IMG/VR virus record: IMGVR_UViG_3300047445_000153
Coordinates: 17,906 to 81,905 of that record
DNA: 64,000 nt
Source: a virus
Reading direction: 5' to 3' (one strand)
Shown here: piece after piece, positions 17,694 to 53,028 of the stretch
Layout of the letters: every line of letters starts with the position of its first letter
Numbering within the stretch: position 1 is the stretch's first letter
Translations under genes and position numbers: made by a program
The notes under the pieces: generated by a model
Told to the model about the DNA's origin: nothing
Seen by the model: only the letters and a program-made list of their open reading frames with translations
Database searches by the model: none

Positions 17694-18079
17694 GCACACC
17701 GCAAGCACCACAGCCACAGCAAGACCCGATGCCCCTCATCCGCACGTTGCAGGCGCAGCGCAACATGGCGCTCGACCAGCTGGCCGACACCAGCGCCGCG
17801 CTCGAACACGTGCAAGCCGTACTGCGTGGCACGCAGGAACTGGCCGCGAAGCAGCAGTCGGAGATCGACGATCTGAACATGCGGATGGGCAAGACGCTCG
17901 CCGCGCTGGCGAGCATGCAAGACTGCAACGCGAAGCTCACCGAGCAGAACCTCGATCTGCAAATCGATCTGGACGAGGCCCGTCGAGTTCCGGACGCGGA
18001 GATCGCGGTGGCCGTAGAGTCACCGGCAGGCGTGCTGACGCTGCCGGTGGCTTATCCGTCTGCTTCGGACGAGCTGTAA
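17690..18079 (+). CDS. Coiled-coil protein of the fibre-maturation unit
   Basis: 129 residues, ATGA overlap with the radical SAM gene. N-terminal Pro/Gln-rich 12 residues, then a long amphipathic helix (about 15-105) with heptad character, ending in a hydrophobic tail. No catalytic motif. It has two Met/Cys-poor halves and one Cys (QDCNAKL). It could be structural or an assembly factor; function unknown. Confidence 0.6.
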   Translation: MSTPQAPQPQQDPMPLIRTLQAQRNMALDQLADTSAALEHVQAVLRGTQELAAKQQSEIDDLNMRMGKTLAALASMQDCNAKLTEQNLDLQIDLDEARRVPDAEIAVAVESPAGVLTLPVAYPSASDEL

Positions 18080-19609: not shown

Positions 19610-20103
19610 AAATCACCTTGATCGTTTCAGCCATAGTCGGATTGCTTGGGACTGCTATGGGATGGGGACTCACGCACGGTTATTACCGCAGCGTGCTGGC
19701 TGAGAACGCATTGGCCCTCTCTCAAGCGCAGCAACGCGCGGATTCACTCGCGCTCTTCGCACAAACCCAGTCGACGCTGGTCATCAACCAGATCGACGCG
19801 ACCTATCAGGAAAAGCTCCATGAACAAGATGCTCTCCACGCTCGCGATCTCGCTGATGTTCGTTCCGGTGCTCTGCGGTTGCGGGACTCCGGCGCCAAGT
19901 GCCCCGCCCAAGTTTCAGCTGCCCCCGGCGCCAGCGTCGGTGACGGTCAAGCAGGAGCCGAACTTTCGGCTGCGGCTACTGAATTTCTTCTCAGTGAAGC
20001 CGAACGAGCTGACCGCGTCGCCATTCAGCTTGGCGCCTGCCAACAAGTAATCGAGTCCGACCGCAAGACCCTTGACCAACTCTTCAACAGGATTTCTGAA
20101 TGA
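19606..20103 (+). CDS. Rz: Inner-membrane spanin (Rz-like)
   Basis: 165 residues from a GTG start that overlaps the holin stop (GTGA). A single N-terminal membrane anchor (ITLIVSAIVGLLGTAMGWGL) is followed by a long helical periplasmic domain, as in Rz. The Rz1 lipoprotein gene is nested inside it in the +1 frame. Spanins join inner and outer membranes and fuse them in the last step of lysis. Confidence 0.88.
   Translation: MKITLIVSAIVGLLGTAMGWGLTHGYYRSVLAENALALSQAQQRADSLALFAQTQSTLVINQIDATYQEKLHEQDALHARDLADVRSGALRLRDSGAKCPAQVSAAPGASVGDGQAGAELSAAATEFLLSEAERADRVAIQLGACQQVIESDRKTLDQLFNRISE
19820..20050 (+). CDS. Rz1: Outer-membrane spanin lipoprotein (Rz1-like), nested in Rz
   Basis: 76 residues wholly within the Rz gene in another frame. 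MNKMLSTLAISLMFVPVLCG leads to the lipobox Leu-Cys-Gly-Cys. The mature part is Pro-rich (TPAPSAPPKFQLPPAPAS), which is typical of Rz1. The predicted mature protein is anchored to the outer membrane and pairs with Rz. Confidence 0.85.
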   Translation: MNKMLSTLAISLMFVPVLCGCGTPAPSAPPKFQLPPAPASVTVKQEPNFRLRLLNFFSVKPNELTASPFSLAPANK

Positions 20104-23100
20104 CAACGAATACCGGCGTTCCAACAAACCCGGATGGCCAGACACTGGCGCTCGTCGTGGCGCCAGTCCTCTCCACCACGCCGCACGCTGCGAGCAAGAT
20201 CCTGTACGGGTCTGGCGCACCTTCGGCTTCCATCGGCGTTGACGGTGACTTCTACCGCAACCTCGACAACGACGACATGTATGGCCCGAAACTGGCTGGG
20301 GCATGGCCGGATGGGTACTCCATCCGCGGCTTCCAGGGGGACCCCGGTCCGGCTGGACCTGCTGGTCTTCTGGACCCCGAACAACTGGACGACATCGAGA
20401 CGTCGGCCGAGGCAGCGGCAGCGAGCGCAGCGGCATCGGCGCAAAGCGCCGTAGCAGCTGCGGCAAGCGCGACGGCGGCGAACACGTCGAAGGTCGCAGC
20501 GGGCACGAGCGCAACAAACGCCGCAGCCTCCGAGACGGCCTCGAACGCGAGCAAGGTCGCGGCAGCAGCGAGCGCAACCGCAGCATCTGGATTCGCCACG
20601 CAGGCTGCATCTAGCAACACTGGTGCGACCACTGCTGCGACAGACTCGGCCGCAAGCGCAACCGCCGCGAACGCCTCGAAGATCGCAGCAGGGATCTCGG
20701 AAACGAACGCAGCCGCCTCAGCCGTGGCAGCGAACACGTCGAAGGTCGCAGCGGGCGTCTCGGAAGGCAACGCGGCAGCAGCTGCTGTCGCAGCGGGCAT
20801 CGCTCGGGATGAAGCACAGACGGCAGCGCAGCAGGCCCTGCAAGGCGCCGCGCCGATCGTGTCCCCTGCTTTCACCGGCAACCCGACCGCACCGACACCG
20901 GCGACTTCCGACAACGATACTTCGGTCGCGACCACCGCGTTCGTGAAGGCAGCAATCGCAGCAGCGGGTGGTGGCGGCGGCGGCGCAGTGTCGACCGTCG
21001 CGGGCCGCACGGGCGACATCCTGCTCACAATCGCAGACGTGACGGGCGGCGCACCGCTGGCCTCCCCCACCTTCACGGGAGATCCGAAGGCACCGACCCC
21101 GGCAACCAGCGACAACGACACGTCGATCGCGACCACCGCGTTCGTGAAAGCGCAGGCCTACGCCCCGCTCTTGTCGCCTGCCCTGACGGGTACGCCGACT
21201 GCACCGACTGCGGCGGCTGGGACCAGCACAACCCAGCTGGCCACCACCGCGTTCGTCACCGCAGCAATGGCAGCGGGCGCAGGCAGCGGCGATGCGGGTG
21301 TGCGCTTCGTCGAGTCGTTCCCCTCGGGCGGCACCGACGACACGACCCAGCTGACCAACGCGCTCGCGTGGCTTCAGGCTGCTCCGCGTCGCACGCTGGC
21401 GATGCAGCACAACAAGGCCTACACGCTCGGCCACCAGATCACGGTGCAAGGCGCGTCGTGGTTCCGCATCGAAGTCAACGGCGCGACCATCAAGGCAGCG
21501 AATGGCATGCCCTGCCAGTTCGGTGACTGGATGCTGAACTTCGTGAGCTGTACGGATGGTGTGATCGTCGACCTGAACTTGGACGGCAACCGCGCGAACC
21601 GCCCGGTGGTCGTTGGTCTGCAAGAGGCACACAACATCCGCGTGTGGAACAACTGCAAGCGCATCACGTTCGTGCGTACCCAGTCCGACAATGGGTGCTG
21701 TGACGGCTTCTACATCGGTGCGGACGACGTGACGAACCTGTCCACGTTCCCGACCGACATCCGGCAGATCGATTGCGGCGCAAACAACTCGTTCCGCAAC
21801 GGGCTGTCGCTGATCAACTCGGTCAACTTCGAGGACTACAGAGGCGCCTACAACAACTCGGTCGGCACGGCGCCTGAAGATGGTGTGGATTGCGAACCGA
21901 ACGGTGACGTGGCTTCTGGTGACCTGGGCAACATCAACCCGCGCTTCTACCACACGACGGCCAACGGCAACAGCGGTCTCGGGTTCCAGATCTTCCTCGA
22001 CTCCAACCACGGTGTGAAGCTGTACGACGTCACGGCCAGCGGCAACATCTCGGGTGCAGTCAGCGCATTCCGCGGTGGTGTCGAGATCTACGGCATCACG
22101 CTGGAAGGTAGGCCGGGGATGGATACCGACCGGGGGGTGATCGACTTGGCGGGTGCTGGCGCGGGCTTGAGCGTCATCAAGGACGTCGTGGCGCGTGACT
22201 ACATCACGAACGACAACGACCTCCGTCCGATTGTCTTCGTCGACGTCGACGTGGCGGGACCTGTCACGGTCGATAACGTGAAGACGTTCGACTGTGACTG
22301 CCCGATCCTGATTGCCAACTCCCCGGTTGAGCTGGCGCAGAACCTCGAAGCGCATGGCCAGATGGGTGGCTACACCGTCAAGCTGATGGCGGGGGCTGAC
22401 CAGTCTACGCTCAAGGGCATCACGGCCCACGACGGCCAGCTGGGCGTGTACGTCAACGCACCGGATGTCTCGGTGAACGACGTGAAGCTCCACAATCTGG
22501 AAGTCACCGCCCCGTTGATCGTGTTCGACACGGGCGCGCTGCGGCCCTCGCTCGACGGTGTCGAGCTGTTCCAAGACGCGGGCGTGCCGTCCGGCCAGAT
22601 CGGGGTGTCCTTCGCACAGGCTCCGGTACGCGCGACCAACATCGTCGGTCACGTGCGGACTGGCACGGCCTGGACGCCGACGACGCTCATCTCGTTCGCA
22701 GGCGGCACCACGGGCTCGCTGATCGCCAACAACTCGCCGTCGACGGTCAGCTCGGGTGTGGCTCCGCTCGCCTCCCCGGCTTTCACTGGCAACCCCACCG
22801 CGCCCACCCCGGCGACGTCCGACAACGATACATCGGTCGCGACGACCGCTTTCGTGAAGGCGGCAATCGCCGCAGCTGGCACGGGTAGTGGCGCACCGCT
22901 CGACTCCCCGGTCTTCACCGGCAACCCGACCGCACCGACACCGGCCACGTCGGACAACGACACGAGCCTCGCGACGACGGCGTTCGTGAAAGCGCAGGCG
23001 TACGCACCGCTCGCCTCCCCCGCCTTCACCGGCAACCCGACCGCGCCCACTCCGAGCGCTGGTGACAACGACACGTCGGTCGCGACGACGGCCTTTGTCA

Positions 23101-24317
23101 CGGCTGCGATCGCAGCTGCGGGCACGGGTGGTGGCGGCACGACCACGGTGCGGCAGACGGCGCTGCGCAACTGGAAGAAGTCGAACACCAGCAAGATCGC
23201 GGCGCTCATGGGCCGTGGCCAGTCTGGTTTCGGCCGTGGCCGGATCCTCGGCATCGGCGACTCGTTCACGGCGGGGTTCGCGGGAGCAGGCACGTCCTTC
23301 ACGAACGGACGCTCGCAGTCGTTCCTCACGCATCTCGCCCGAGCGATGGCCGCACGGGGCATGAAGGCGACGGCGGATTGGGCGGTGGGTGACGGCAACT
23401 CGGGCGACGTGCCGCTGGTCTACGATCCGCGACTGGTGCTCAGCGGGGGTGCGAGCCTGCTGGATACCTCTTTCAAGTGCCTCGGTGGCAGCGGCTGGAC
23501 GATGGATGGTACCGGCAACCGGATCACCTTCACGCCGGTGGACGCGGCAGGCGTGGCGATTGCGTTCGACACGGTCGAAGTGCTGGTGATGTGTAACAAC
23601 AACACCGGGGTGTCGGGCAACTTCGACGTGTTCTACAACGGCAATTTCACCACGCCTGCGCAGACGGTCACCAGCAACGACATCATGGGCGTGAAGAAGG
23701 TCACGCTCACGGTGCCCGGTGCGGCTGGCACGACGGCGAACTCGGTGACGTTCCAGCGCAAGACCAATACGACGTTCATCGCGGCGGTCGGCACGCGGGT
23801 TGCATCCAAACCCGGCATCGAGATCATCAACGCGGGTAGCACGGGCACGCCGCTGGCGACGTATGCAGCAGCCCCCGGCTCTACCAGCGGCTCGGGTGAC
23901 TCGAACACGTGGAACACGCGTGCAGCGGCGAACGTGCTGATGGACACGAACGCGGTCAACGTGACGTTTATCAACGGCTGGTACAACGACAAGGATGCAG
24001 CCTCGACGATCGCCGCCACGCAGACGCAGCTCGCCAACCTGATCACCGCCGCGAAGGCTTGGGGTGATGTGGTCTTCATCGGCTACGCGCCGCTCGACCC
24101 GAGCGACACCACGCTGACCCTCTACAACCAGTGGCAGGATGCGATGTATGCGACGTGTATCGCCGCTGACATCCCGATCATCGATCCGCCCGCACTGCTG
24201 CCGGTGTATGCAACCGGCGTGTCGTACGGGCTGTACGGTGACTCGCTGCACTTGAACGGTTCCGGCCATGCGCTCATCGCGCGATCCATCCTCGAAGCTA
24301 TGAGTGACATCGCGTAA
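20100..24317 (+). CDS. Tail spike with beta-helix and C-terminal SGNH (GDSL) hydrolase domain
   Basis: 1405 residues, ATGA overlap with Rz. Order: N-terminal attachment region (1-80), short collagen-like GDPGPAGPAG, Ala-rich coiled coil (about 100-250), three repeats of the type PAFTGNPTAPTPATSDNDTS..ATTAFVK (about 255-385), a right-handed beta-helix-like region (about 395-880; many N-G turns, NGATIKAANGM, LDLNLDG-type strands), three more of the same repeats (890-1000), and an SGNH hydrolase (1045-1405) with GIGDSF (Asp1054, Ser1055) and DSLHLNG (Asp1381, His1384). Such domains typically cut or deacylate capsule or O-antigen. Hence this is a likely surface-polysaccharide receptor and depolymerase. 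It sits in the lysis operon rather than with the J-like gene. Confidence 0.87.
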   Translation: MTTNTGVPTNPDGQTLALVVAPVLSTTPHAASKILYGSGAPSASIGVDGDFYRNLDNDDMYGPKLAGAWPDGYSIRGFQGDPGPAGPAGLLDPEQLDDIETSAEAAAASAAASAQSAVAAAASATAANTSKVAAGTSATNAAASETASNASKVAAAASATAASGFATQAASSNTGATTAATDSAASATAANASKIAAGISETNAAASAVAANTSKVAAGVSEGNAAAAAVAAGIARDEAQTAAQQALQGAAPIVSPAFTGNPTAPTPATSDNDTSVATTAFVKAAIAAAGGGGGGAVSTVAGRTGDILLTIADVTGGAPLASPTFTGDPKAPTPATSDNDTSIATTAFVKAQAYAPLLSPALTGTPTAPTAAAGTSTTQLATTAFVTAAMAAGAGSGDAGVRFVESFPSGGTDDTTQLTNALAWLQAAPRRTLAMQHNKAYTLGHQITVQGASWFRIEVNGATIKAANGMPCQFGDWMLNFVSCTDGVIVDLNLDGNRANRPVVVGLQEAHNIRVWNNCKRITFVRTQSDNGCCDGFYIGADDVTNLSTFPTDIRQIDCGANNSFRNGLSLINSVNFEDYRGAYNNSVGTAPEDGVDCEPNGDVASGDLGNINPRFYHTTANGNSGLGFQIFLDSNHGVKLYDVTASGNISGAVSAFRGGVEIYGITLEGRPGMDTDRGVIDLAGAGAGLSVIKDVVARDYITNDNDLRPIVFVDVDVAGPVTVDNVKTFDCDCPILIANSPVELAQNLEAHGQMGGYTVKLMAGADQSTLKGITAHDGQLGVYVNAPDVSVNDVKLHNLEVTAPLIVFDTGALRPSLDGVELFQDAGVPSGQIGVSFAQAPVRATNIVGHVRTGTAWTPTTLISFAGGTTGSLIANNSPSTVSSGVAPLASPAFTGNPTAPTPATSDNDTSVATTAFVKAAIAAAGTGSGAPLDSPVFTGNPTAPTPATSDNDTSLATTAFVKAQAYAPLASPAFTGNPTAPTPSAGDNDTSVATTAFVTAAIAAAGTGGGGTTTVRQTALRNWKKSNTSKIAALMGRGQSGFGRGRILGIGDSFTAGFAGAGTSFTNGRSQSFLTHLARAMAARGMKATADWAVGDGNSGDVPLVYDPRLVLSGGASLLDTSFKCLGGSGWTMDGTGNRITFTPVDAAGVAIAFDTVEVLVMCNNNTGVSGNFDVFYNGNFTTPAQTVTSNDIMGVKKVTLTVPGAAGTTANSVTFQRKTNTTFIAAVGTRVASKPGIEIINAGSTGTPLATYAAAPGSTSGSGDSNTWNTRAAANVLMDTNAVNVTFINGWYNDKDAASTIAATQTQLANLITAAKAWGDVVFIGYAPLDPSDTTLTLYNQWQDAMYATCIAADIPIIDPPALLPVYATGVSYGLYGDSLHLNGSGHALIARSILEAMSDIA

Positions 24318-24347: not shown

Positions 24348-24373
24348 GGGAGCCTTCGTGGCTCCCTTTTTTT
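24348..24373 (+). terminator. Rho-independent terminator after the tail spike gene
   Basis: Stem GGGAGCC (24348-24354) / GGCTCCC (24360-24366), TTCGT loop, then seven T. It ends the lysis/spike operon. Confidence 0.92.
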
Positions 24374-24383
24374 ATGTATGATG

Positions 24384-24415
24384 AACTAGTCGACGGCCTA
24401 GCTAGCTAGCTAGTT
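24384..24415. repeat. CTAG tandem array within an inverted repeat
   Basis: Four tandem CTAG tetramers occupy 24398-24413, and the segment is bounded by AACTAG and CTAGTT. CTAG is usually scarce in enterobacterial and related genomes, so a run of four is unusual. It lies between the spike terminator and the parA promoter and could be a protein-binding site. Confidence 0.6.
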
Positions 24416-24460
24416 TGTTGTCAAGCGTGCGTCTAATCGGGTCAACCTCCATCCACGGAG

Positions 24461-24489
24461 TTGAACTCCACCGCTCGATAGTCTATCCT
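24461..24489 (+). promoter_or_regulatory. Putative sigma-70-type promoter of the partition/replication module
   Basis: TTGAAC (24461-24466), 17-bp spacer, TATCCT (24484-24489), about 33 bp before the parA start codon. Confidence 0.5.
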
Positions 24490-24522
24490 CCTGCAACAAT
24501 CCATCATAACTAGGAGCGCAGG

Positions 24523-25191
24523 ATGACTGTCGTTGCGTTAGCCGTAGAGAAGGGTGGTGTGGGGAAAAGCAACCTGACGGAATCGTTAGCCGCGCTGCGC
24601 GCTGGGTTGAAGTACCGCGTGGCGATCTTGGACCTAGACCGTCAGGCGTCCACCAGCAAGTGGGGCTTGCGAAGAAAGGACACAGGAGGTCTTCCTCACG
24701 TCCACATAGAGAGGGGGGCGGGTGTCGACGAGGTCGTCGTGCTGGAGGACTTTAGGCGTCGGTTGTCGGACCTGAAGCAAGCGTATCAGGACGTGTTCAT
24801 TGATGTCGGGGGGCAGGACAACGGGCTGTTCCGCGAAACGCTTTTGTTGGCGGATAAGGTCGTGGCCCCGTTGGTGCCTGGACCCGCAGAAGCCGACACA
24901 GTCATCGACCTTGCGAACACGCTGCGCGGCATGAGGCAACGCCCGGACGTCCGCGTGGTGCTGAACATGGTCAGCGGGATGCCGAACCTGTTACGCGTCA
25001 TGCAAAGCACACTGGACGACCACAAGGATGTCTTGCCGACCGTTGGCTTCACGATCGGTCGGCGCGTCGCGTTCCCGTACGCGAGCGCGGCAGGGAAGGG
25101 CGTGAGCGAGCTGGCCACCCGCAAGGAAGGGTTTGATCCTGCTGCTGCAAATGATCTGCGCAGCCTTTACTTGGAGATTTTCGGAAAATGA
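24523..25191 (+). CDS. parA: ParA-family partition ATPase
   Basis: 222 residues. Deviant Walker A KGGVGKS with both lysines (Lys10, Lys15), then VAILDLDRQAS (switch I/Walker A' region with DLD) and FIDVGGQDN (Walker B-like). The size fits type Ib ParA proteins of plasmids, which lack an N-terminal DNA-binding domain. It moves replicon copies apart before cell division together with the DNA-binding partner encoded immediately downstream (ATGA overlap). This is unusual in a phage unless it persists as a plasmid. Confidence 0.9.
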   Translation: MTVVALAVEKGGVGKSNLTESLAALRAGLKYRVAILDLDRQASTSKWGLRRKDTGGLPHVHIERGAGVDEVVVLEDFRRRLSDLKQAYQDVFIDVGGQDNGLFRETLLLADKVVAPLVPGPAEADTVIDLANTLRGMRQRPDVRVVLNMVSGMPNLLRVMQSTLDDHKDVLPTVGFTIGRRVAFPYASAAGKGVSELATRKEGFDPAAANDLRSLYLEIFGK

Positions 25192-25586
25192 GCACAGCCC
25201 GATTCAACGCGAAGAGCAAGAAGGAGTTTTCCGATCTCGCGCCCGCAGAGGAGGGCGCACAGGCGGCTCCGGAGACCCCACCCGCTACTCAGCCCTCAGC
25301 AGAGCCTCAGCAGCCCGCTGTGGCCCCTCCTGTGCAGCAGCTGGTGGCAAACCACCCTCCTGCGAAACCGCCTTTGACTGCTCCAGCGTTGCCGCAGGGC
25401 TACGTCAAGAAGCGCGGTGTTCGAGACCGTGGCCAGCCGCTGAACGTGTTGATCCCGTCGCCACTGTTCGACAAGCTCCAGCAGACGGCGCGCGACCTGG
25501 GCGTCACGCAGAAGGACATCGTGGCCAAGGCGATCGAGAAGGAGCTGAAGCTGATCGAGTTCGAACTGGGGCAACCGGGCGGGTGA
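25188..25586 (+). CDS. Partition site-binding protein, ribbon-helix-helix (ParB-like, type Ib)
   Basis: 132 residues. A disordered Pro/Ala-rich N-terminus (about 20-75) leads to a C-terminal ribbon-helix-helix (PLNVLIPSPLFDKLQQTARD, then GVTQKDIVAKAIEKELK). Small RHH partners of type Ib ParA bind the centromere and stimulate the ATPase. The start overlaps the parA stop. The first residues (MSTARFNAKSKKEF) resemble the ParA-interacting basic end of such proteins, which is an inference. Confidence 0.75.
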   Translation: MSTARFNAKSKKEFSDLAPAEEGAQAAPETPPATQPSAEPQQPAVAPPVQQLVANHPPAKPPLTAPALPQGYVKKRGVRDRGQPLNVLIPSPLFDKLQQTARDLGVTQKDIVAKAIEKELKLIEFELGQPGG

Positions 25587-25935
25587 CCGTGGATTTGCCC
25601 TATTGGGAGGATTTCCGGGTTGCGTTAGTTCGGAGGAAATGGTTATCCACAAACGCTCGCGCGGGGTTTGTAGACGTTTGTATACGTTTGTAGGAGGCTG
25701 AGACCCTTCACCAGTAAGGCTTTGCTGGGAGCTATTGGGAGGATTTCCAGACGCATTGGGAGAATTTCCAGACGAACTGGGAGGATTTCCGGGTTGGTGA
25801 TTGGGAGGATTTCCAGACGAATGCCTGTTATCCACAGGTTTTGCCCGGAAATCCTCCCAGTGACAACGGATCGGGAGGGATGATAATCTAAACCCTCCCA
25901 GTCATCCGGCCTGCGACAACCCGGAAATCCTCCCA
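25587..25935. other. Plasmid-type replication origin region (iterons, DnaA boxes)
   Basis: This 349-bp non-coding stretch lies between the partition operon and the Rep gene. It holds two perfect DnaA boxes TTATCCACA (25643-25651 and 25828-25836), four or five direct iterons and two inverted copies, and three tandem 10-mers GTTTGTAKAC-like (25666-25695). This is the classical layout of an iteron-regulated plasmid origin. An AT-rich melting region is not obvious; the tandem 10-mers are the best candidate. Confidence 0.85.
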
Positions 25936-25936
25936 A
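25603..25936. repeat. Iterons (TTGGGAGGATTTCC)
   Basis: Direct copies: 25603-25616, 25735-25748, 25756-25769 (GAATTTCC variant), 25777-25790 (CTGGGAGG variant) and 25801-25814. The spacing of 21, 21 and 24 bp from 25735 onward places them on about the same helix face. Inverted copies: 25847-25860 and 25923-25936, the latter touching the Rep start codon. Rep_3 initiators bind direct repeats as monomers and inverted ones as dimers. Confidence 0.9.
25666..25695. repeat. Three tandem 10-bp repeats in the origin
   Basis: GTTTGTAGAC, GTTTGTATAC, GTTTGTAGGA in direct succession, 15 bp after the first DnaA box. Possible DNA-unwinding or protein-binding array. Confidence 0.6.
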
Positions 25937-26691
25937 TGAAACTCAAGCACGCGAAGGCTGCGATCGATTTAGTCGATCGGCATGTGACCCTGCATAACGA
26001 CCTTGTCGTTGCCTCGCATGGGCTGAAGACCCTGGCTGAACAGCGCATCGTGAAGTCGTGCGCGGCCAAGATCGACTCCGTGCGGCTTGAGAACAATCGA
26101 TACAAGATCAAGCTAAACGCGAGAGAGTATGCAGAGACCTTCGGGCTGGATATGGCCACCGCCTACGAGCAGCTGAAGAGCGGGTGCACAGAGCTGACTG
26201 AGCGGTGGATCGAGTGGTCGGAGACGGTGGTGAAGGAGAGGGGAGTCATCGCGCGGCATAAGGACCGCTGGGTGAGCGGTGCGACGTACGTCGACAAGGC
26301 GGGTTGGATCGAGCTGCGGTTCACGCCGGAAGCGACGCCGTTCCTGAACGTGCTCCGTGGCAACCACACGACCTACTTGCTGCGGCAGGCTGCGTCGTTG
26401 CGGTCGATCTACTCATGGCGGCTGCTGGAGCTGCTGATGCAGTTCAAGGACACTGGCTGGCGGCAGATGCCGATCAAGGACTTCCTCCGCGCGATGGACG
26501 CGAAGCCGAGCCATATGCAGAACTTCAAAGATGCTCGGAGGCAGATCATCGAAGTCGCGGTGAAGGAGTTGCAAGAGAAGGACGGGTGGATGATCGATTG
26601 GGATACCGTCCGGGAGGGGCGGAAGGTTGTAGGTATCAAGTTCAACTTCAAACGTGATCCTCAAGGAAAACTGGCCTTCACAGAGGCCTGA
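25936..26691 (+). CDS. repA: Replication initiator, Rep_3 family
   Basis: 251 residues. Two winged-helix domains typical of Rep_3 initiators are suggested: the N-terminal NDLVVASHGLKTLAEQRIVK, and the C-terminal LLRQAASLRSIYSWRLLELL followed by WRQMPIKDFLRAMDAKPSHM and FKDARRQIIEVAVKELQ. It would bind the iterons just upstream and recruit DnaA and helicase. The start codon at 25936 is the end of an inverted iteron, so dimeric Rep probably blocks its own translation or transcription. Confidence 0.88.
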   Translation: MKLKHAKAAIDLVDRHVTLHNDLVVASHGLKTLAEQRIVKSCAAKIDSVRLENNRYKIKLNAREYAETFGLDMATAYEQLKSGCTELTERWIEWSETVVKERGVIARHKDRWVSGATYVDKAGWIELRFTPEATPFLNVLRGNHTTYLLRQAASLRSIYSWRLLELLMQFKDTGWRQMPIKDFLRAMDAKPSHMQNFKDARRQIIEVAVKELQEKDGWMIDWDTVREGRKVVGIKFNFKRDPQGKLAFTEA

Positions 26692-26694
26692 CTT

Positions 26695-26910
26695 ATGCCA
26701 AAGCTTGCCCAGCTCGCTGGCCAACGATTCGGCCGACTGGTCGCGGTCGAGCGTGTACAACCCGAAATCCCGAGGGCTCAATGGCTCTGCGTGTGTGACT
26801 GCGGCGCCACAACTGTCACGTACGCGGAGAACCTTAAACGTGGCCGGACCAAATCCTGCGGGTGCCTCCCTCGGGAACGCGTGCGGATTTTTAAACTTCA
26901 AAAGACATGA
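26695..26910 (+). CDS. Small zinc-binding phage protein
   Basis: 71 residues, four bases after the Rep stop. LAGQRFGRLVAVERV then WLCVCDCGATTVTYAENLKR and KSCGCL form a compact Cys-rich beta unit (C-x-C-x-C ... C-x-C). The same unit is frequently found alone in phages or at the N-terminus of AP2/HNH-type DNA-binding proteins. Likely zinc-binding and possibly DNA-binding; the role is unknown. Confidence 0.75.
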   Translation: MPKLAQLAGQRFGRLVAVERVQPEIPRAQWLCVCDCGATTVTYAENLKRGRTKSCGCLPRERVRIFKLQKT

Positions 26911-27260
26911 CCCAGACGTTGCAGGAGATGGAGGCTGAGCTGGCCGCGCTGTACGCGAAGGTACAGGCAGAGAAGACGCGCGTACGTACGACCGCGCTCG
27001 AAGGCATTAAAGCCATGCTGGAGTCGGGCACGCTGACGGCTGACGATCTGCGGGAGCTGCTACCCCCACCCCCGCCTCCTGAGCGTCCCAGGCGGGACTA
27101 CAGGAGGCCTCCGAAGTATCGCGACCCTGAGAGCGGCGGCACGTGGACGGGGCAGGGGGCCGAGCCGAACTGGATCAAGGGCAAGAACCGAGACCAGTTC
27201 TTGATCGATCAGCGCTCCTCGATCTCGACCAGCTCGGGCTCGAACGTGAAGGGCTCGTAG
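26907..27260 (+). CDS. H-NS-like nucleoid protein (copy 1)
   Basis: 117 residues, ATGA overlap with the preceding gene. The N-terminal 55 residues are a coiled-coil oligomerisation helix (QEMEAELAALYAKVQAEKTR). A Pro linker (LLPPPPPPERP) leads to the DNA-binding domain: KYRDPESGGTWTGQGAEPNW, the typical motif of beta-proteobacterial H-NS proteins. It may silence phage or host genes or shield the replicon in the lysogenic/plasmid state. The tail overlaps the convergent downstream gene by 52 bp. Confidence 0.85.
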   Translation: MTQTLQEMEAELAALYAKVQAEKTRVRTTALEGIKAMLESGTLTADDLRELLPPPPPPERPRRDYRRPPKYRDPESGGTWTGQGAEPNWIKGKNRDQFLIDQRSSISTSSGSNVKGS

Positions 27261-27550
27261 GTCACCAGTGTGATGCCCCATGAGCCATTGAGTGGTGGCC
27301 ACCCTTCGACCTCGCCGCTGTTGAAGCGCTGCTCGGGGTCGAAGTGTTCAGCGCTCTCGGCCATGAACGTTGCGCAGAACATCTTCAGCACAGCGTCGAG
27401 GGGCGTGTCGTGCCTCAGCCGGTACTCGTGACCACCCCAGAAACTATTGATTTCGAGCAGCTTGTCTTCGGTCAAGATCTCGTGGTCGATCTCGACGGTC
27501 ATCTGGTAGCCGTCAGCGTAGATCAGGTTGTAGCGCTTTTTATTAGTCAT
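27209..27550 (-). CDS. Conserved phage protein (DUF2528-like)
   Basis: 113 residues from the ATG at 27550, which has AAGGAG 7 bases upstream; a longer frame to 27583 lacks this. The sequence YNLIYADGYQMTVEIDHEIL and FWGGHEYRLRHDTPLDAVLK resembles the DUF2528 family as recalled. It is the last gene of the long minus-strand region and its 3' end overlaps the H-NS gene tail. Confidence 0.6.
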   Translation of the reverse strand: MTNKKRYNLIYADGYQMTVEIDHEILTEDKLLEINSFWGGHEYRLRHDTPLDAVLKMFCATFMAESAEHFDPEQRFNSGEVEGWPPLNGSWGITLVTYEPFTFEPELVEIEER

Positions 27551-27791
27551 GAAACATCTCCTTGAACGCTTGGCGCTTCGCACGAACCGTCTCTAGCAAC
27601 TCGCGCTCTTTCTGTTTGTCCCGCTTGAGCATCGGCGCCCATGCGAGGTAGTGCTCACCGACTTCGCCGATCCACGTGCCGGTGACGAGGATGCCGCCGA
27701 CCGTCAGCAGCATGCACTTGGCGAGGCCGTGCTTGGGCTTCTCGTAGGTCCAGGCCACGGTCTGCGCGGCCACGTATTCTTGTGCTGTCAT
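27543..27791 (-). CDS. Hypothetical protein
   Basis: 82 residues, overlapping the next gene by 8 bp. N-terminal half contains GLAKCMLLTVGGILVTGTWI (beta-rich), the rest is a charged helix. Not recognised. Confidence 0.6.
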   Translation of the reverse strand: MTAQEYVAAQTVAWTYEKPKHGLAKCMLLTVGGILVTGTWIGEVGEHYLAWAPMLKRDKQKERELLETVRAKRQAFKEMFHD

Positions 27792-44873: not shown

Positions 44874-45136
44874 TGAACCCCCCGGAATGCAGGCACTGTC
44901 TTGACCCTCACGAACTCTCGCGGCTGGACGTTGTAGAGCGCGATGTACATGCCGCTTTCGAGCCAAGCCACTGGCTCGCGGGTGGTATCTCCGAACTTCG
45001 CATCGTCCGGGTCCAGGTAGTCCCTTTGCACACGGAGCACCAGTCGGGGCACGCCGTGGAGGCTGTCCATCCAGTGGACGTTGCTGTTACGTCGCAGCGT
45101 CATCTTGGCCAGCTGGTCGATCTGGTCGTCAGTCAC
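44870..45136 (-). CDS. Hypothetical protein
   Basis: 88 residues, ATGA overlaps at both ends. Beta-rich after an N-terminal helix (RLVLRVQRDYLDPDDAKFGD). Not recognised. Confidence 0.55.
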   Translation of the reverse strand: MTDDQIDQLAKMTLRRNSNVHWMDSLHGVPRLVLRVQRDYLDPDDAKFGDTTREPVAWLESGMYIALYNVQPREFVRVKTVPAFRGVQ

Positions 45137-46338
45137 GAGCGCGCCTCCTTCACTTCGAGTGTGACCCTGTCGATTAGAGCCTCCCTGTCGGCTGCGGCGA
45201 GTAGGTCTTCAATCTTGCTCGCCCATCCGTTGTGAATGTGCACGCCTTTGTACTCGTCGGCGGCCGGGTTGTACGTGCGCAACTCGTGCGCGATTCGCAT
45301 CAGCGCCGCATCCTTTTCGGCGTCCGCACGCTCAAACAGCCACGTCATCGCGTCTTGGACAGATTGAATCGTGCGCGGCGCTTCGCTCATTTCTGTCTCA
45401 ATATTGGCACCCCAAATGCGCAGAACGAAGTCCGGGTAAATCGTCACTTTCCGCTCGCCGTGCCAAACCTCAACCGGCTTATCTTCGGCGTCCGCACGCT
45501 CATTACTCGCGCCTGCTGTGGCTAGGGCGTCGCGGATCATCAAAATCACTTCGCCGATCTTGTCTGCGGTGTTCGATGCTCGATCAGCGCGCAAGTCGCC
45601 ATATGACTGAATCGCCTCTATTATTTCCTTGCTCACCGGAAACGCCCCCGCTGTGTCGGCGTCAGCACGCGGGGCAGGTACGGGCGAAAAATCCTCGATC
45701 GCGTCGATCATTCCGGAGCCGTAAGACTTCGAACGCGGGGCGATAGGTGCGGTGACAAGGACCACATCATGTGGTGCGGGCTTGTATCCGTCGAATGCCC
45801 ACAGCAAGCACGGCTCTTTGCTACGCCCGTCGTAAAATGCCACCGCCTCACGCGGGGCAGGCACCGGAGCGAAATCCTCAATCGCGTCGATCATTCCGGA
45901 GCCGTAAGACTTCGAATGTGGGGCGATAGGGGCGGCGTAAAGCTTCGTCCCGATTGGCAACGTCTTAAGCACTTCCTCTTGAATCACCAGATCACGCTCT
46001 GCGAACGCGTCAGGGTCGCCATACTTATTGACCACTTCCGCCACCGCCTCACTCTTGCCGCCCTCGGCGCAGCCTGCCGACCTCCATTCGCCGGTAACGG
46101 GATCTGCCGTGACGTGTGCGTCGTCCCCGCCTGCATGCGTATCGCCCTTGTCTATAGCAGCGCGGGCTTGCCATGCGGTCCACCATGCGGTGACGTTCAG
46201 GTCGATATACCAGCCGTGCGGAACCTCGCGTTCCAAAAGATGCGCTCGACCGGAAGCGGAAACCCACGCCTTGAAGCGCTCCCGCTCTCCCGCGCCTGCT
46301 GATCCGTCACCGCCTGCGCAGCGTTTGTCGTTGTTCAT
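45133..46338 (-). CDS. Phage protein with WW-AWQAR motif and an internal duplication
   Basis: 401 residues. The N-terminal motif WYIDLNVTAWWTAWQARAAI is common to many small phage proteins of unknown role. The middle holds two copies of SKSYGSGMIDAIEDF.PVPAP from an 82-bp imperfect duplication. The C-terminal 120 residues (DAALMRIAHELRTYNPAADE) are helical. Function unknown. Confidence 0.65.
   Translation of the reverse strand: MNNDKRCAGGDGSAGAGERERFKAWVSASGRAHLLEREVPHGWYIDLNVTAWWTAWQARAAIDKGDTHAGGDDAHVTADPVTGEWRSAGCAEGGKSEAVAEVVNKYGDPDAFAERDLVIQEEVLKTLPIGTKLYAAPIAPHSKSYGSGMIDAIEDFAPVPAPREAVAFYDGRSKEPCLLWAFDGYKPAPHDVVLVTAPIAPRSKSYGSGMIDAIEDFSPVPAPRADADTAGAFPVSKEIIEAIQSYGDLRADRASNTADKIGEVILMIRDALATAGASNERADAEDKPVEVWHGERKVTIYPDFVLRIWGANIETEMSEAPRTIQSVQDAMTWLFERADAEKDAALMRIAHELRTYNPAADEYKGVHIHNGWASKIEDLLAAADREALIDRVTLEVKEARS
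45666..45930. repeat. 82-bp imperfect direct repeat inside the 45133 gene
   Basis: Copies at 45666-45747 and 45849-45930, same length, differing at several positions. In frame, so they encode two repeats of about 27 residues. A recent local duplication. Confidence 0.8.
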
Positions 46339-52602: not shown

Positions 52603-52956
52603 TCATGCAGCCTTCTTCTTCGACTTCTCGTGATCGATCAGATAATCGTCCCGATTGCCTTCGATCCAGTGCGGCTGATGCCCCCGCCCGCTCCACGTTT
52701 TCCCAGAAGCTGGGTCGCGGTATTTCGGAGGGGCAGCAGGACTCGGAACTTTCACGGAGAAGGTTTTAGCCTTCGGGTCCTTCTTCGCTTTAACGTGCTG
52801 AGTCTTAATGAACCCGAGGTCGTGCGCAGTCAACTCGTATTCATTAATGATAGCCATCGCCTTCTTAATGCCCTCGGCGCGCTCTTCCGCCAAAGCCATG
52901 TCGGCTTGCCGCATCAGTTCTTCGGCCTGAAGTCTCAACTCTTTGTAACTTGCCAT
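52603..52956 (-). CDS. H-NS-like nucleoid protein (copy 2)
   Basis: 117 residues from the ATG at 52956. The N-terminal helix (YKELRLQAEELMRQADMALA) is the oligomerisation part. A basic linker (VKAKKDPKAKTFSVKVP) leads to PPKYRDPASGKTWSGRGHQP and HW, the canonical H-NS DNA-binding motif. It differs enough from the 26907 copy to be an independent acquisition or old duplicate. Placed in the early operon, it may act at once after infection. Confidence 0.9.
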   Translation of the reverse strand: MASYKELRLQAEELMRQADMALAEERAEGIKKAMAIINEYELTAHDLGFIKTQHVKAKKDPKAKTFSVKVPSPAAPPKYRDPASGKTWSGRGHQPHWIEGNRDDYLIDHEKSKKKAA

Positions 52957-53028
52957 GTTCAACCCCTCATGATTCCGGTTACGCACCGGGAAAGCGATAG
53001 GGCAGAACATTACAACTCCAAGGATGTT

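Follow-up and report, generated by a model that had tools for sequence, protein, structure and literature searches.

Does the group of plasmid-type genes that follows the late genes of this phage serve to maintain it in a dormant host as a plasmid? A sequence-only reading of the 64-kb window (the whole stretch of DNA analyzed, 64,000 nucleotides, running from base 17906 to base 81905 of a virus record of 81,905 bp, here called G000) had proposed that ParA, an RHH partner, iterons with DnaA boxes, and a Rep_3 initiator form a plasmid module next to the late genes. Each of these parts was confirmed. Our comparisons of sequence indicate, with a probability of about 0.86, that G000 is a temperate siphophage of the JWF type and that it persists in lysogens as a low-copy plasmid.

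The backbone of G000 resembles that of Achromobacter phage JWF. The TerL proteins are 63% identical; the TerL, portal-region, and tail genes, which provide the structural and packaging functions of a phage, are homologous to those of JWF, as are the replication genes; and the tail, lysis, and early replication genes are collinear in the two phages. Further relatives were Achromobacter 2-1, Xylophilus Lumi, Caulobacter Seuss, Pseudoalteromonas KB12-38, and Acinetobacter EAb13/TCUP2199. The lytic replisome that had also been noted is the set present in JWF as well (genes for PolA, ligase, SbcCD-type proteins, and 5'-3' exonuclease, and for a P4-type primase that is encoded to the left of the window). 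Family scans of G000 early proteins revealed no recognizable CI-like repressor. The early operon also contains a 401-aa minus-strand ORF (window positions 45133-46338) with no PHROG match and no JWF homologue at the threshold used.

The replication and partition module

The whole module occupies positions 24386-26691 of the window. It lies in a slot between the last late gene and the first conserved gene of the early operon, with the features listed here (record G014 and loci L004-L009 are described below).

20100-24317, + strand: tail spike/fiber gene, the final late gene and left flank of the slot
24348-24373, + strand: terminator-like hairpin closing the late operon; a similar hairpin is upstream of parA in G014
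24386-24413, no strand assigned: candidate centromere (parS) made up of five CTAG boxes within 28 bp
24457-24469, no strand assigned: 13-nt palindrome GGAGTTGAACTCC that overlaps the -35 box of parA
24461-24489, + strand: parA promoter TTGAAC-17-TATCCT, read by eye; adjoining bases are conserved in G014
24523-25191, + strand: ParA ATPase, 222 aa, without an N-terminal HTH (type Ib-like)
25188-25586, + strand: predicted RHH partner (ParB/ParG-like), 132 aa, disordered N-terminus; overlaps parA by 4 bp
25604-25616, + strand: solitary upstream iteron
25643-25651, + strand: DnaA box TTATCCACA
25666-25692, + strand: three GTTTGTA repeats with a 10-bp period, candidate unwinding element
25736-25814, + strand: four tandem iterons TGGGAGGATTTCC (25736, 25757, 25778, 25802; periods 21, 21, 24)
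25828-25836, + strand: second DnaA box; L004-L009 have a DnaA-like box in the same place
25847-25859, - strand: inverted iteron abutting the rep -35 box, conserved in L004-L009
25860-25887, + strand: rep promoter GTGACA-16-GATAAT, from a consensus scan (10 of 12 consensus positions)
25923-25935, - strand: inverted iteron immediately upstream of the rep ATG
25936-26691, + strand: Rep_3 initiator, 251 aa
26695-26910: zinc-ribbon-like ORF, 71 aa, PHROG HNH family, outside the replicon
26907-27260, + strand: H-NS-like accessory protein downstream in the slot (PF00816, 2.6e-11; phrog_10171)
27209-27583, - strand: first conserved early-operon gene, right flank of the slot

The module had originally been drawn from 24461 to 26910; this extent holds as far as 26691, and the remainder (26695-26910) is the separate zinc-ribbon-like ORF. 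A second H-NS-like protein of phrog_10171 is encoded at window positions 52603-53010.

The origin has the organization of an iteron replicon, with tandem iterons near a 20-22 bp period and two DnaA boxes. Seven copies of the iteron with at most one mismatch were found, all in the module; 0.08 would be expected in the 64-kb window. Perfect DnaA boxes occur just twice in the window (0.16 expected), both times in the origin. The GTTTGTA repeat stretch is 49% AT, versus 39% for the window, and the repeats are conserved in L004-L009 and not clearly in G014. The scan that identified the rep promoter would give 0.7 sites by chance in the region, and its output did not include the parA promoter. Rep has two winged-helix domains, Rep3_N (1e-35) and Rep3_C (8e-15), and resembles the solved RepA/RepE initiators. 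The Rep_3 protein, iterons, and DnaA boxes thus constitute an initiator with its origin, as in phage-plasmids.

Maintenance genes of a phage-plasmid are represented by ParA, the predicted RHH partner, and the candidate centromere. ParA matched the CbiA (7e-11), AAA_31 (1e-10), and PHROG ParA-like (8e-27) profiles and had a weak sequence match to ParF. Assignment of the partner as an RHH protein rests on a weak Pfam hit (RepB-RCR_reg, 2.6e-5), a four-sequence alignment, and an AlphaFold model, in which two confident helices at residues 91-126 match CopG/Arc/ParG-type RHH folds; no Foldseek match of the model reached an E value of 0.001, which is unsurprising given the shortness of the domain. 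A small ParA without an HTH and a partner with a predicted RHH fold point to a type Ib (ParF/ParG type) system. The window contains 31 copies of CTAG, five of which are in the candidate centromere; the maximum in 200 simulated windows was 3 per 30 bp, compared with the observed 5 per 28 bp. G014 has five CTAG in 48 bp upstream of parA. Such clusters were found upstream of parA in G000 and G014 only, and other phages have other boxes. The palindrome GGAGTTGAACTCC is a possible operator for the RHH protein.

From these features we infer roles for the module in replication, partition, and lysogeny, and for the CTAG cluster as parS. Rep would bind the tandem iterons and, together with host DnaA, open the adjacent region; theta replication would then start and be run by host enzymes. 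The inverted iterons around the rep promoter would allow Rep to repress its own expression. ParA and the RHH protein would act on the CTAG boxes upstream of parA to distribute the copies.

Contents of the slot in JWF-like phages

The absence of an integrase, first noted for the window, holds for the whole record. A functional integrase with an attP outside the window would have spoken against a plasmid state; all 81,905 bp were searched, and no tyrosine (PF00589) or serine (PF00239) recombinase match was found in the record, which is linear without end overlap and whose completeness is judged from its extent relative to JWF.

The flanks of the slot could be followed in related genomes. Homologues of the gene at 27209-27583 lie past the module or integrase in G012, G015, G016, and G017. 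The tail spike/fiber gene has a 55% identical counterpart in G012; in G014-G017, the Burkholderia paludis MSh1 prophage, JWF, and 2-1, conservation is confined to the N-terminal part. Between these flanks, G012 (TerL 90% identical to that of G000; 127-bp circular end overlap) has a different ParA, a partner, and a 189-aa winged-helix protein that is RepL-like, with a RepL match barely above the family cut-off. The slot of JWF-like G014 contains its own diverged ParA-RHH-iteron-Rep_3 set: its Rep is 41% identical to the G000 Rep, its iteron is TGGGACATTTTCC, and its layout is that of G000, with a solitary copy, a gap of ~130 bp, and four copies 20-22 bp apart. Judging from this pair, Rep and iteron sequences appear to co-vary. 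The slots of G015, G016, G017, and the MSh1 prophage have a tyrosine integrase (77%, 66%, and 65% identical to that of G016 in G015, G017, and MSh1, respectively). In JWF the slot is occupied by an SGNH hydrolase gene, and in 2-1 by other genes.

In G015 (L141:2027-5085) an AlbA_2/Schlafen-type protein, a 341-aa ParA-like ATPase, and a 203-aa protein adjoin the integrase, possibly as an accessory or defense cassette; this odd ParA-like protein beside an AlbA_2 protein was not counted as a partition system. The more distant JWF-like records G043 (L147:4273-5264) and G031 (L146:4638-5273) encode VirC1/ParA-type ATPases elsewhere in the genome and gave no integrase match.

Relatives in bacterial genomes were found with a TerL profile scan; a portal-protein scan of bacterial genomes yielded nothing. 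The closest relative detected in a bacterial genome contig was the B. paludis MSh1 prophage, which is JWF-like (TerL 73%) and, unlike G000, is integrated, with an integrase in the slot and a flanking 16-bp repeat. It extends from 182,993 to 261,933 on a 290-kb contig, between copies of TGGAACATCTGGTCCG, with host-type genes on both sides (a porin and a methyltransferase on one, a GntR-aminotransferase on the other). Because the integrase is at one end of the prophage and the late genes are at the opposite end, attP must have been in the slot. The same 16-mer is found near the contig end of G017, past the late genes, at the junction that circularization would form with the integrase. A tRNA att site was considered and dropped; since the region contains no tRNA, the 16-bp repeat is the preferred att.

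In the TerL tree (39 members) G000 and G012 were sisters (100/99) with different replicons, and the pair sister to these two had integrases. Four members of a seven-member clade (100/99) had an integrase, three had partition genes, and none lacked both. The three labels (integrase, partition, neither) required 11 changes on the tree versus 16.9 in shuffles. Integrase and partition genes avoided each other (Fisher p 0.008, or 0.044 when the G015 ParA-like protein was counted), p values that are indicative only because the records are related and incomplete. No serine recombinase was found in 33 records. The cassette stands in place of the integrase and attachment site that relatives have in the same slot, and this position makes dormancy as a free circular plasmid very probable. 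We consider it an even bet that the JWF-like phages of Burkholderiales reserve one slot for maintenance functions, in which int-attP and several unrelated complete plasmid replicons have been traded repeatedly. Iterons and centromeres would have diversified in the process, plausibly because co-resident phage-plasmids thereby avoid being incompatible.

Conservation of the module in other phages

The module is also present in phages with unrelated backbones (Rep 76-79% identical). Scanning viral contigs with the G000 Rep identified six loci at 75-78% identity; of the window proteins tested, only Rep, ParA, and, weakly, the ligase had matches at these loci. ParA, iterons, a DnaA-like box, and Rep are retained in L004, L005, L008, and L009, and a small RHH-like gene is present in L004 and L005, the loci examined for it. 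Rep dN/dS relative to G000 was 0.08-0.14, values that are approximate because synonymous changes are near saturation; the module thus appears to be conserved under purifying selection in several phages. L005, L008, and L009, on viral contigs that measure 107-216 kb, have genes for a DnaB helicase and CobT-like proteins, with a CI-like regulator adjoining the module; they are likely a second phage-plasmid group. One more viral contig with the iteron motif, L169, was set aside as a chance match (one copy, no Rep).

Plasmid matches to Rep were common, all of them less than 60% identical, and the origin DNA had no plasmid match. Three plasmids with Rep relatives, from P. fungorum (83.9 kb), Pandoraea (80.8 kb), and S. 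denitrificans (86.6 kb), had sizes that suggested phage-plasmids but were rejected; the stretches read contained conjugation or metabolic genes and no phage genes.

The proposed lysogenic state and known systems

Other explanations of the module were weighed against a plasmid lysogen. Rep and its iterons might instead fire an early round of lytic replication, with ParA and the RHH protein as regulators or bystanders. The phage replication set encoded in G000 and the failure to recognize a repressor would fit such a role; however, JWF and 2-1 have the shared lytic replication genes without Rep, the module swaps with integrases, which are a lysogeny function, partition genes have no evident lytic use, and KS14, which has a homologous Rep, is a plasmid prophage. 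We therefore regard a purely lytic role as unlikely. The module might also be a piece of a plasmid that the phage acquired recently, either as mere cargo or as a means of displacing resident plasmids by incompatibility. We judge this very unlikely: although Rep relatives are common on plasmids and the slot is variable, as in JWF and 2-1, every part is intact and apparently under purifying selection, the close kin detected for the module are in other viral contigs, and the record has no integrase.

An assembly chimera of plasmid and phage deserves mention, since the record is of metagenome type and does not come from a known isolate. The JWF gene order nevertheless continues on both flanks, and analogous cassettes are found in the same slot of the independent contigs G012 and G014, which makes an artifact highly improbable. 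Slot exchange, conservation of the module, the KS14 plasmid prophage, and circular JWF-like elements all favor the extrachromosomal lysogeny originally suggested for G000. In this phage lineage of Proteobacteria, the choice between chromosomal integration and plasmid lysogeny would lie in a swappable cassette, so that the two lifestyles can be weighed for their costs in phages that are otherwise nearly alike. The comparisons also indicate that plasmid replicons move between unrelated phages. A missing integrase does not mean that such phages are strictly lytic, a point to consider when phages are selected for therapy against Achromobacter and Burkholderia.

The backbone of JWF and 2-1 is that of G000 (TerL 61-63%), and both phages match it in gene order and size; they differ in having a slot without integrase, ParA, or Rep. 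JWF was described as turbid, UV-reinducible, and temperate (PMC3899368), although its genome (NC_029075.1; L002, L003) yielded no gene for a tyrosine integrase, ParA, or Rep_3 protein; module and lifestyle are thus not perfectly linked. Later papers inferred possible lysogeny for JWF relatives (PMC9228384, PMC9959647).

A search of genomes for circular plasmid prophages of this type had been proposed as a check; circular JWF-like elements do occur in bacterial genomes, as distant relatives only. The plasmid pMaq22A_3p of Methylobacterium aquaticum, complete and circular (85.7 kb), has JWF-like TerL (40%), PolA, SbcC-like, and tail genes and a ParA; unlike in G000, ParA adjoins the primase and no Rep_3 initiator is annotated. 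An 84,253-bp contig of Methylorubrum suomiense (L037, NZ_BPRE01000020.1) with 111-bp overlapping ends has JWF-like phage genes, ParA, and no integrase match, and is likely a phage-plasmid, not so labeled in its record title. These Methylobacteriaceae relatives are far from G000 (TerL ~40% identical, ParA elsewhere), and their circular ends could also stem from packaged phage DNA.

Lysogens of the P2-like Burkholderia phage KS14 yielded the prophage as plasmid DNA (PMC3091744). Like G000, KS14 has a ParA, a Rep_3 initiator (43.7% identical over 98%), and iterons of related sequence before rep, with four iteron-like copies 21-22 bp apart; unlike G000, its backbone is P2-like and 32 kb, and rep and parA are apart on opposite strands. 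In cluster A mycobacteriophages a parABS cassette is colinear with the integration cassette of close relatives, and the prophage is extrachromosomal (PMC7157519). Exchange of an integrase for partition and replication genes is thus already known, and G000 shares it with these phages, which are unrelated, have actinobacterial hosts, and use different RepA or RNA-based origins. In the open-access literature we found no description of phage-plasmids in the JWF lineage or of the slot exchange. As far as we have searched, what is new is the occurrence of this swap in a proteobacterial lineage, in which one slot holds an integrase or any of three replicons.
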